A stretch of 64,000 nt of DNA from an uncultured SAR86 cluster bacterium (GTDB lineage Bacteria; Pseudomonadota; Gammaproteobacteria; Magnimaribacterales; TMED112): positions 318,077-382,076 of the forward strand of contig CACATF010000001.1 in the NCBI GenBank assembly GCA_902535365.1, written 5' to 3'. The position numbers were made by a program, and so were the translations under genes. Shown here in pieces: positions 17,743 through 33,504 of the stretch (its first letter is position 1; every line of letters begins with the position of its first letter). Under the pieces are notes generated by a model. The model saw nothing but the letters and a program-made list of their open reading frames with translations. It was not told where the DNA came from and made no database searches.

Positions 17743-18006
17743 ATGTCCAAATATTTAGAACTTGTTGAGATTTCTGAAGGCGTTATCGTCTTAAGAAGAT
17801 CAGATGCAAAAGACTCTCCATTGGTAAAAATCGAATTTTCAGGTGATGTTAAGTCTCTTTTGAATGGTATGGAGTTTGATGTTGCAAAAGAGATGATCAA
17901 AGCTGGAATCGAAACCCTAAATAGTGATATTGATCTTGATTCTTTAGATGATGATATGTTGGATACAATAATGAAGAAAGATCTAGAAGATCGAGTAATT
18001 CATTAA
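17743..18006 (+). CDS. Small acidic protein of unknown function
   Basis: An 87-residue, strongly acidic soluble protein with no signal peptide or membrane segment. The N-terminal half looks like beta strands (YLELVEISEGVIVLRR, PLVKIEFSG), the C-terminal half helical and rich in Asp (SDIDLDSLDDDM). Its place between topA and lexA matches a small conserved hypothetical found at that position in other gammaproteobacteria such as Pseudomonas (from memory, not checked). Its TAA overlaps the lexA stop on the other strand through a shared TTAA. Function not known. Confidence 0.72.
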   Translation: MSKYLELVEISEGVIVLRRSDAKDSPLVKIEFSGDVKSLLNGMEFDVAKEMIKAGIETLNSDIDLDSLDDDMLDTIMKKDLEDRVIH

Positions 18007-18593
18007 ACTGATTCTCTAATTACGCCTACTGCTTTACCTTCAATAGCAAAATATGTTTGTTCAGATACATGAATGTCCTCGTAAGCTGAGTTTTCAGCAA
18101 TTAATTTTATTGAGGTTTTATTCTTGCTAAATCTTTTTAAGGTGACATCTTCATCTATGCGCGCGACAACAATTTCACCATTTTCTGCATTGTTAGTTTT
18201 TTTAATACCAACTAAATCATTGTCTAAAATGCCAGCCTCTACCATGCTATCGCCTTGAACTCTCAGAAAGAAATCAACTCCTTTAGTTAATGGATTTAAA
18301 GGGATGGTTTTTTCGATGTTCTCTACTGCTAAGATCGGTGAACCAGCTGCTACAGAACCAACAAGAGGTATCCCAGATGCTTCTTCAACAAGTTTAATGC
18401 CTCTTGAAGAGCCTGGAACTTTTTCTATGACTCCTTTTTTTACAAGAGCTTTAATGTGTGACTCTGCTGCATTTACTGATTTAAAATCCAATATTCTTGC
18501 AATTTCAGCTCGAGTTGGTGGGTAACCATTGTTCTGCATTGATTCTTTGATAACATCAAAGACTTTGATCTGTTGAGCTGTAAGGTTTAACAT
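18003..18593 (-). CDS. lexA: SOS repressor LexA
   Basis: Represses SOS genes and self-cleaves when RecA is activated. The 196-residue protein has the N-terminal winged-helix domain (1-70, YPPTRAEIARILDF with SVNAAESHIKAL), the cleavage site Ala83-Gly84 (SVAAGSPI), and an intact Ser-Lys dyad: Ser116 in QGDSMVEAGI and Lys153 in VTLKRF. The start ATG follows a perfect CTGT-N8-ACAG operator by a few bases, so the gene is autoregulated. It is transcribed away from the 5'-nucleotidase gene, which shares the operator region. Confidence 0.96.
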   Translation of the reverse strand: MLNLTAQQIKVFDVIKESMQNNGYPPTRAEIARILDFKSVNAAESHIKALVKKGVIEKVPGSSRGIKLVEEASGIPLVGSVAAGSPILAVENIEKTIPLNPLTKGVDFFLRVQGDSMVEAGILDNDLVGIKKTNNAENGEIVVARIDEDVTLKRFSKNKTSIKLIAENSAYEDIHVSEQTYFAIEGKAVGVIRESV

Positions 18594-18596
18594 ATA

Positions 18597-18612
18597 CTGT
18601 AATTATATACAG
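18597..18612. promoter_or_regulatory. LexA operator (SOS box) between lexA and the 5'-nucleotidase gene
   Basis: CTGTAATTATATACAG is a perfect CTGT-N8-ACAG LexA site. It contains the minus-strand lexA -10 (TATAAT, 18607-18602), eight bases before the lexA ATG. It lies 24 bases upstream of the divergent gene at 18637, whose likely -10 (TATGAA, 18619-18624) puts its -35 on the operator, so LexA should affect both directions. Confidence 0.9.
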
Positions 18613-18636
18613 TTAATTTATGAATGTACAAATAAA

Positions 18637-31805: not shown

Positions 31806-33060
31806 CTTCTGGCAGTTCCTCAACCTTTGTTGTGTACCTCTTTGATTTTATTTGTCTCTTCATCCTCCATGTATTAATAAACCCTTGATTACCAAAACCA
31901 ATTCTTGCTATTTCCATCATATTTATATGATCTACTGTTCTCATTAGTTCTCTTGAAGATTTGCTATCAATATTTTTATCAAACAATGACATTTGATATC
32001 CATAACTTTTAGTAAAATCGCTCAGCAAGACTCCAGCTTTTGAATATTGGTATCCATCCATAAATACTGAGTTAAGAATTTGATTTGCATTCTTGATTAT
32101 TATGCGAGAATCGTCTGTTGGATAGGCAAGCTCTATATGCCTCGATGCATAAATTTGTTTGATGTTGTTATTAAACCTATTCGACCTGATAAAAGCTGTA
32201 ATAATTCTACATTTTTGGGATTCATGCCTAAGTTTTTCTGCAGCTCTGCTAGCATGAAAGCTGATTGCTTCAGATAAAATCTTCTTTGAAGTTATGCTTC
32301 TACCGAAACTCCTGCTAACCATGATTTGTTTTTTGGGTTCCATAAAATTGTTGGTTGTAATACATGGCTGCCCTCGAAGCTCTCTTACTGTTCTTTCTAA
32401 AATGACATTAAAATTACTTCCCACCAGCCTTGGGTCCAATTGACTTAGATCATATGCATTGCTGATTCCAATTTCCTTTAATCTAATTGTCAGCCGTCTA
32501 CCGACACCCCATATTTTGTCGATGGAAGTGGACTTTAGAAAATGGCGAGTGATATCCTTATTTGCCAAAATTACAACTCCTCCATACCTTGGGTCATCTT
32601 TTGCTACCTTGTTTGCTAATTTTGATAGAGTTCTTGTTGGAGCTATGCCTATGCTGACTGGTATGCCTACCCACTTCTTTATTTTATCCCTACAGTCATG
32701 AGCAAAATTTATGAGATCTATGTTGGTTTTAAATGAGCTAAGGTCCAAGAAAGCTTCGTCTATGCTGTAGATATCAATTTCAGGACAAAATTCAGTTAAT
32801 ACATTCATCACCCTGTTCGAGATGTCAGCATAAAGTTCATAGTTGGAAGAGAAAACTATCCCGTTGCTATTGAGATACTTATCCTTTACCTGGTACCAAG
32901 GCTGACCCATGCCTATTCCCATTAGTTTTGCTTCAGATGATCTGGCTATGACACAACCATCATTATTGCTCAGGACAACAATTGGCTTGTTTCTTAGATC
33001 AGGTCTAAATATTTTTTCGCATGAAGCATAGAAGCTATTGCAATCAACAAGAGCAAACAT
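31798..33060 (-). CDS. umuC: Translesion DNA polymerase V catalytic subunit UmuC
   Basis: Y-family polymerase for damage bypass. The 420-residue protein (E. coli 422) keeps the catalytic residues: Asp6 in MFALVDCNSFYASCE and Asp101-Glu102 in YSIDEAFLDL; VGIPVSIGIAPTRTLSKLAN and KIWGVGRR follow. A clamp-binding motif QMSLF lies at 356-360 and the UmuC tail YTTKVEELPEVS is present. It shares one base with umuD (TAATG), so the pair is co-translated and under the SOS box upstream of umuD. It appears fully functional, in contrast to its partner. Confidence 0.95.
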   Translation of the reverse strand: MFALVDCNSFYASCEKIFRPDLRNKPIVVLSNNDGCVIARSSEAKLMGIGMGQPWYQVKDKYLNSNGIVFSSNYELYADISNRVMNVLTEFCPEIDIYSIDEAFLDLSSFKTNIDLINFAHDCRDKIKKWVGIPVSIGIAPTRTLSKLANKVAKDDPRYGGVVILANKDITRHFLKSTSIDKIWGVGRRLTIRLKEIGISNAYDLSQLDPRLVGSNFNVILERTVRELRGQPCITTNNFMEPKKQIMVSRSFGRSITSKKILSEAISFHASRAAEKLRHESQKCRIITAFIRSNRFNNNIKQIYASRHIELAYPTDDSRIIIKNANQILNSVFMDGYQYSKAGVLLSDFTKSYGYQMSLFDKNIDSKSSRELMRTVDHINMMEIARIGFGNQGFINTWRMKRQIKSKRYTTKVEELPEVS

Positions 33061-33461
33061 TAGTAAGTATTAATGGAAGAGGTCACAACCCCCAATAGTT
33101 CAAAATCTATAATTGTATCTATATCTATTCTGGTATTGTTTTGACAATCGGTGATTAGGTATTTTTTGTTACCAATAATAAGCTTGCGACATAAAAAACT
33201 ATCATTAATAGTTGCGACAATGATATCGCCATTGCCAGGCTGAATGCTTCTGTCAATCACCAGAATACAGTTATTTTTAATGCCAGAAAATATCATCTCA
33301 TGACCTCTGAATCGCATTAAAAATGTAGCACTAGGTCTTTTTACTAGCAGTTCATTTAAATTAATTGGATTCTCTATATAGTCATTTGCTGGGCTGGGGA
33401 AACCAGAGTGTTTTAGGTTTTTATGAGGCAAGTAATCCCCATTCTTCTCTTTAGAAAACAT
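33060..33461 (-). CDS. umuD: UmuD homologue lacking the Ser-Lys catalytic dyad
   Basis: Partner of UmuC in polymerase V. The 133-residue protein aligns along its length with E. coli UmuD (139): an N-terminal arm of 19 residues, the cleavage-site region HSGFPSPANDYIE, LNELLVKRPSATF, and the ending LLGVVTSSI. But the nucleophile motif GDSM is GHEM here (Glu55 for Ser60), and FTVKKL is FLCRKL (Arg92 for Lys97). The bases at these codons (GAG and an Arg codon) read cleanly. In E. coli these residues perform the self-cleavage that activates UmuD. The arm is kept, so the protein is not a pre-trimmed UmuD'. Either cleavage is done by something else or uncleaved protein works. Confidence 0.88.
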   Translation of the reverse strand: MFSKEKNGDYLPHKNLKHSGFPSPANDYIENPINLNELLVKRPSATFLMRFRGHEMIFSGIKNNCILVIDRSIQPGNGDIIVATINDSFLCRKLIIGNKKYLITDCQNNTRIDIDTIIDFELLGVVTSSINTY

Positions 33462-33471
33462 ATATAAAGTA

Positions 33472-33487
33472 CTGTATATTTATACAG
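33472..33487. promoter_or_regulatory. LexA operator (SOS box) upstream of umuDC
   Basis: CTGTATATTTATACAG is a perfect CTGT-N8-ACAG site, in fact a near-complete palindrome, ending ten bases before the umuD ATG (minus strand). It lies in the 43-base gap between the lpxH stop and umuD, so umuDC are SOS-inducible. Confidence 0.92.
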
Positions 33488-33504
33488 TATTTTATACTAA
33501 TTTA

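Follow-up and report, generated by a model that had tools for sequence, protein, structure and literature searches.

The UmuD protein of one SAR86 family has lost both residues of its catalytic dyad in all 18 recovered orthologues, and a short basic tail stands in place of its arm motif. Retained are the UmuD' body, the SOS box, UmuC, LexA and RecA. UmuD is the switch subunit of Pol V, a mutagenic repair polymerase, and its self-cleavage is the textbook timer that delays Pol V activity to the late SOS response. We think it likely that the UmuD of this family acts in Pol V like UmuD' and independently of processing, with LexA and RecA as the only gates, and that in this lineage transcription alone probably switches Pol V on. 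A marine lineage appears to have dropped the cleavage timer for what is apparently its sole Y-family polymerase and to have retained the gene, its promoter and LexA. If true, SOS transcription and Pol V activation would have been uncoupled here in the course of evolution. Two questions become open to test: whether cleavage is needed for arm release or for regulation only, and what the polymerase can accommodate ahead of the UmuD' N-terminus.

The stretch of DNA analyzed (64,000 nucleotides; the window) comes from a TMED112-like SAR86 bacterium. We call its family f1 and the other three SAR86 families f2 to f4. The same 21 genomes make up both the window's genus and the whole of f1; they include TMED112 and several SAR86 single-cell genomes, are mostly metagenome-assembled genomes (MAGs) and single-cell genomes, and are mutually concordant. 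The features discussed are listed in Table 1.

Table 1. Positions of the umuDC and lexA features in the window.
Feature	Position	Strand	Basis
umuD, 133 aa, without Ser-Lys dyad	33060..33461	-	sequence match and fold match to UmuD/UmuD'
Glu55 codon, column of catalytic Ser60	33297..33299	-	alignment to 8gmt/1umu
Arg92 codon, column of catalytic Lys97	33186..33188	-	alignment to 8gmt/1umu
N-terminal tail, residues 1-19 (13-19, HKNLKHS)	33405..33461	-	family comparison, pLDDT
GFPSPA, start of the UmuD' body	33387..33404	-	invariant across f1 sequences
SOS box TACTGTATATTTATACAGTA, palindromic half-sites	33470..33489	. (drawn on +)	TACTGT-N8-ACAGTA, zero mismatches
umuC, 420 aa, catalytic motifs intact, overlaps umuD stop codon	31798..33060	-	
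lexA, dyad and Ala-Gly cleavage site intact; internal control for S24 self-cleavage	18003..18593	-	
lexA SOS box, one mismatch	18595-18614		

A UmuD homologue without the Ser-Lys dyad

E. coli UmuD (8gmt) and UmuD' (1umu) can both be aligned to the window protein (phmmer), which places Glu55 at Ser60 and Arg92 at Lys97, as an earlier note on this DNA had proposed. The protein scores 109 bits against the NCBIfam UmuD model NF007621, one bit short of the cut-off of 110, and 71 against the HumD-type model NF051876 (cut-off 120). A structure predicted from 19 aligned sequences has a pLDDT of 78.8, with residues 1-17 below 50; its best PDB matches are UmuD and UmuD' (TMt of 0.86-0.91 for the top four, 0.91 to 8gmt and 0.88 to 1umu). 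In fold, in sequence, in its operon with umuC and in its LexA-type promoter, predicted from the SOS box, the protein resembles UmuD; the Ser-Lys dyad and the arm with its docking motif and C/A-G scissile bond are missing. It has neither the catalytic Ser nor the catalytic Lys of an active S24 peptidase, and by sequence the TMED112-type UmuD is classed as a non-peptidase S24 homologue. Nor does it begin at or near the UmuD' N-terminus as the armless HumD-type proteins do, since 19 residues precede GFPSPA. Besides this UmuD, the genome of the window encodes a single S24 protein, LexA, and a second, normal umuD, one of the two cautions in the earlier note, was found neither there nor in near-complete relatives.

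UmuD orthologues were recovered in 18 of the 21 f1 genomes, the other three being 70-79% complete. Ser60 and Lys97 are both absent from every one of the 18: the replacing pair is Glu/Arg in 14, Asp/Arg in three and Gly/Arg in one, with the Arg written in five different codons across the family. The single Gly55 protein has an acid at position 54 instead. This disposes of the other caution, a single-strain oddity or a sequencing error, as the loss is shared throughout and is present in single-cell genomes.

The E/R or D/R pair probably fills the former Ser-Lys pocket via a salt bridge, an arrangement suggested by the independent occurrence of an acid paired with Arg in another UmuD-like protein (L124, below), and UmuD of f1 would be incapable of cutting itself. 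The invariant Arg and the acid at 55 or 54 might also be read as new catalytic chemistry, in which UmuD still cuts itself through Glu/Arg or another local pair. We regard this as very improbable, given that Gly occupies the nucleophile position in one orthologue, that there is no conserved Ser, Thr or Cys substitute adjacent to it, and that the substrate motif is gone.

Outside f1 the dyad is the rule. Ser/Lys is present in 64 of 64 genes sampled from f2 to f4, apart from the f3 genus g7, and in 112 of 118 UmuD-type matches in class and phylum samples. Both g7 genomes read have Ser/Arg; at these loci (L087 and L171) Lys97 alone is changed to Arg (GKSM/CRRL) and the arm is normal, possibly a half-way state. 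The UmuD tree, built on 114 columns only, hinted at a common ancestry of the Lys-to-Arg change in f1 and g7. This is contradicted by the UvrB tree, in which g7 lies within f3, and by the UmuC tree, in which g7 groups with f3, so that the change in g7 was most likely a separate event. The uvrB gene is in pieces in two f3 genomes, G100 (L200), where there are internal stop codons, and G104 (L201), possibly through sequencing error. Further afield, a UmuD homologue directly 5' of umuC has both dyad residues replaced (GNAQ/LQRL; L246 in G876), as does a UmuD-like protein encoded on the minus strand in G535 (L124; GDDW/LRRV), which has a normal-looking arm. The L124 gene lies just downstream of a gene for a LexA-like S24 protein with an intact dyad, and cleavage in trans by this neighbor is conceivable.

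The N-terminal arm and the proposed mode of activation

The bond cleaved in E. coli UmuD is Cys24-Gly25, and GFPSPA stays on UmuD'. The earlier note took GFPSPA as a sign that the arm and its site were retained; as the first UmuD' segment after cleavage, this motif is uninformative about the arm. The note was right that an arm of 19 residues precedes it, but the f1 arm (19 to 20 residues) is about nine residues shorter than that of f3 (28 residues) and its docking and cleavage motif has been replaced. The arm of the sister families terminates in a hydrophobic motif, xP[LY]F...[VI]x[AV]-G (the hyphen marking the scissile bond), shared by most other UmuDs; that of f1 terminates in HKK[LQ]KHS-G or a closely similar sequence. 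In their last 11 residues the 10 distinct f1 arms (GRAVY -2.24 to -1.35) are all more hydrophilic than 124 other distinct arms (-1.07 to +1.80). None of the 10 has A, C, V or G at the scissile position or V, I, L, A or M at position -3. Counted back from Gly without gaps, T14, L17 and F18 of E. coli correspond to D/N, S/L/P and H/Y in f1.

The tail is not uniformly constrained. Among close pairs, dN/dS is 0.225 for residues 2-12, which are loosely constrained, and 0.046 for residues 13-19, a body-like value, though one drawn from five substitutions only. With the dyad and the arm motif lost and residues 13-19 constrained, both the enzyme and the substrate of self-cleavage are gone and something else has been kept. 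Direct production of a tail-less UmuD' from an internal start is rejected, as no conserved start codon for one occurs in f1. Loss of Lon as the cause of the missing arm motif is likewise rejected, Lon being present in six of eight f1 genomes tested.

A close parallel is E. coli UmuD3A (T14A L17A F18A), which has a full-length arm, is uncleaved and mimics UmuD' (PMC5342242). As in f1, a tail is retained, the docking contacts are removed and the uncleaved protein is UmuD'-like; UmuD3A, however, was engineered and has its dyad intact, whereas f1 is a natural lineage in which the dyad is also lost. The f1 tail would similarly be undocked from its own UmuD body, and the dimer would be UmuD'-like from synthesis and pair directly with UmuC.

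In E. coli, Pol V is delayed by the slow, RecA-driven cleavage of UmuD. With an uncleaved UmuD'-like dimer that step would be absent, leaving LexA repression and activation by RecA-ATP as the gates. These would carry the more weight because the 23 SAR86 genomes tested yielded no Y-family polymerase other than UmuC; DinB appears to be absent from them. Automatic annotation as an autoproteolytic subunit is probably wrong for the f1 clade.

The UmuD' N-terminus is normally a free Gly. The counterpoint is that Gly20 of the f1-type UmuD is preceded by 19 residues. In structural models the UmuD' N-terminus is inserted between two UmuC domains, palm and little finger, close to DNA and the active site (PMC11791011, PMC12926913), and HKKxKHS, just N-terminal to GFPSPA, is probably placed near both. 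The segment may be basic and conserved because an uncleaved subunit would carry it towards the DNA. More tentatively, the arm may have been rebuilt as a permanent basic HKKxKHS segment that enters the cleft between palm and little finger and touches DNA, giving an altered Pol V that is uncleaved and gated by transcription and RecA.

Two results from E. coli bear on whether such a polymerase would be active. The S60A and K97A forms of UmuD strongly reduce Pol V mutagenesis, and K97A keeps UmuC at the membrane (PMC3901139, PMC4552617). Since dyad loss alone is inhibitory there, the case for an active Pol V in f1 rests on the change in the arm. UmuD18, which is uncleaved and has a seven-residue arm, supports low mutagenesis only (PMC5342242), so that a residual tail can impair activity.

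That another protease, or LexA in trans, processes UmuD at the basic HKKxKHS-G is unlikely in our view. The segment N-terminal to the former scissile bond is basic and conserved, as a protease site would be, and cleavage in trans is possible for E. coli UmuD (PMC5342242); yet the only S24 proteins of the genome are LexA and UmuD, LexA's own site is VAA-G where the tail has KHS-G, and no new protease gene adjoins umuDC. Activation without cleavage, by another protease, or under a different checkpoint with an intact arm were the options named in the earlier note. The first is favored and the other two are disfavored, because not only the dyad but also the docking motif of the arm and its A/C-G cleavage site have been lost.

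Constraint and SOS control of the operon

Purifying selection on umuD and umuC in f1 is strong. For the UmuD body, pooled dN/dS is 0.070 (six independent close pairs) and omega under a codon model is 0.035; for umuC the values are 0.067 (five close pairs) and 0.029. The f1 UmuD is slightly less constrained than that of the sister families, for which the same model gives 0.014-0.021 (dS approaches saturation on the full trees), and its stem branch in the UmuD tree is long. The 18 f1 genomes share one umuDC arrangement. The N-terminal and SIDE catalytic motifs of UmuC are conserved in every copy, and 17 of the 18 copies are full length, in line with the intact umuC described for the window; the exception, a frameshifted gene of 248 instead of 420 residues (L010 in G007), is from a MAG that is 66% complete and is probably an assembly error.

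The SOS box of umuD, correctly called perfect in the earlier note, has its core at 33472-33487, 10 nt 5' of the umuD ATG. It is the sole zero-mismatch site in the window, where 1.8 sites with at most two mismatches are expected by chance on average, and wherever DNA upstream of a SAR86 umuD is available, it contains a perfect CTGT-N8-ACAG box.

The slightly raised omega, the long stem branch and the one umuC frameshift are what would be expected if umuDC were on its way to being lost, or if the sequences were assembly artefacts. Neither seems credible: the 18 orthologues are open and strongly constrained and include single-cell genomes, SOS boxes are perfect, and the sole frameshift is in the incomplete MAG. 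The low dN/dS, the perfect boxes and the intact umuC likewise bear out the earlier view that the gene is not simply decaying.

A further alternative is that uncleaved UmuD is a permanent brake, with UmuD2-UmuC serving only a checkpoint or damage tolerance and translesion synthesis largely abandoned. In E. coli, uncleavable UmuD with UmuC does lower mutagenesis and UmuC is held at the membrane (PMC3901139, PMC4552617). Such a brake needs a docked arm, however, as shorter or undocked arms are without an alpha-clamp effect (PMC5342242), and the f1 tail is without the docking motif. The retained catalytic residues of UmuC, its low dN/dS and its standing as the only Y-family polymerase argue that its polymerase activity is in use, and we consider a permanent brake improbable.

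The LexA of the window keeps its VAAG site, GDSM and VTLKRF, in agreement with the intact dyad noted earlier, and both the dyad and the Ala-Gly site are intact in all f1 genomes examined. The loss is therefore specific to UmuD, and the reading that the lineage gave up S24 chemistry or the SOS response as a whole is ruled out. LexA and the f1 UmuD share the S24 fold and membership of the SOS regulon; LexA retains its dyad and cleavage site in these genomes, and UmuD, unlike LexA, has no DNA-binding domain. RecA is present in f1, and most of the positions checked are kept, including Arg243 and Lys245. At position 158 (E. coli numbering), RecA has Asp or Asn in the window's family (L203, L205-L208 and L215) and Glu in every sister family sampled.

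Relation to known UmuD'-like proteins

Our search of a library of open-access papers found none that mentions both UmuD and SAR86. With E. coli UmuD (NF007621/PRK10276, S24 fold) the f1 protein shares the fold, GFPSPA, the operon with umuC, the SOS box and the sequence family; E. coli UmuD has the dyad and the docking and cleavage motif, and the f1 protein has a short basic tail in place of the motif and is without both.

A UmuD' that is free of processing is already known. P1 HumD, a UmuD'-like protein, is described as functional (McLenigan 1999, as cited in PMC4713147 and PMC11541004), and with it and other armless UmuD' proteins (NF051876) the f1 protein shares a UmuD' body that is independent of self-cleavage. 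The armless proteins have no arm at all and, where studied, are phage-borne, plasmid-borne or extra copies; the f1 UmuD is a sole chromosomal copy with a conserved 19-residue tail, and both residues are lost family-wide. The f1 case thus differs in its route, since the protein was disabled in place and a conserved tail retained, in its fixation on the chromosome across a family and in the lack of a second copy.

Four loci in our samples (L217, L221, L229 and L257) have an apparently armless UmuD'-like gene directly 5' of umuC; Lys97 is changed to Arg in L221 and L229, and Ser to Ala in L257. Fifteen IMG/VR contigs (L277-L291) encode short UmuD'-like proteins that start with or contain MGFPSPANDYIE. 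No umuC was seen beside genes of this type at the loci inspected, and in those of the proteins that were aligned the whole GxSM region is deleted.
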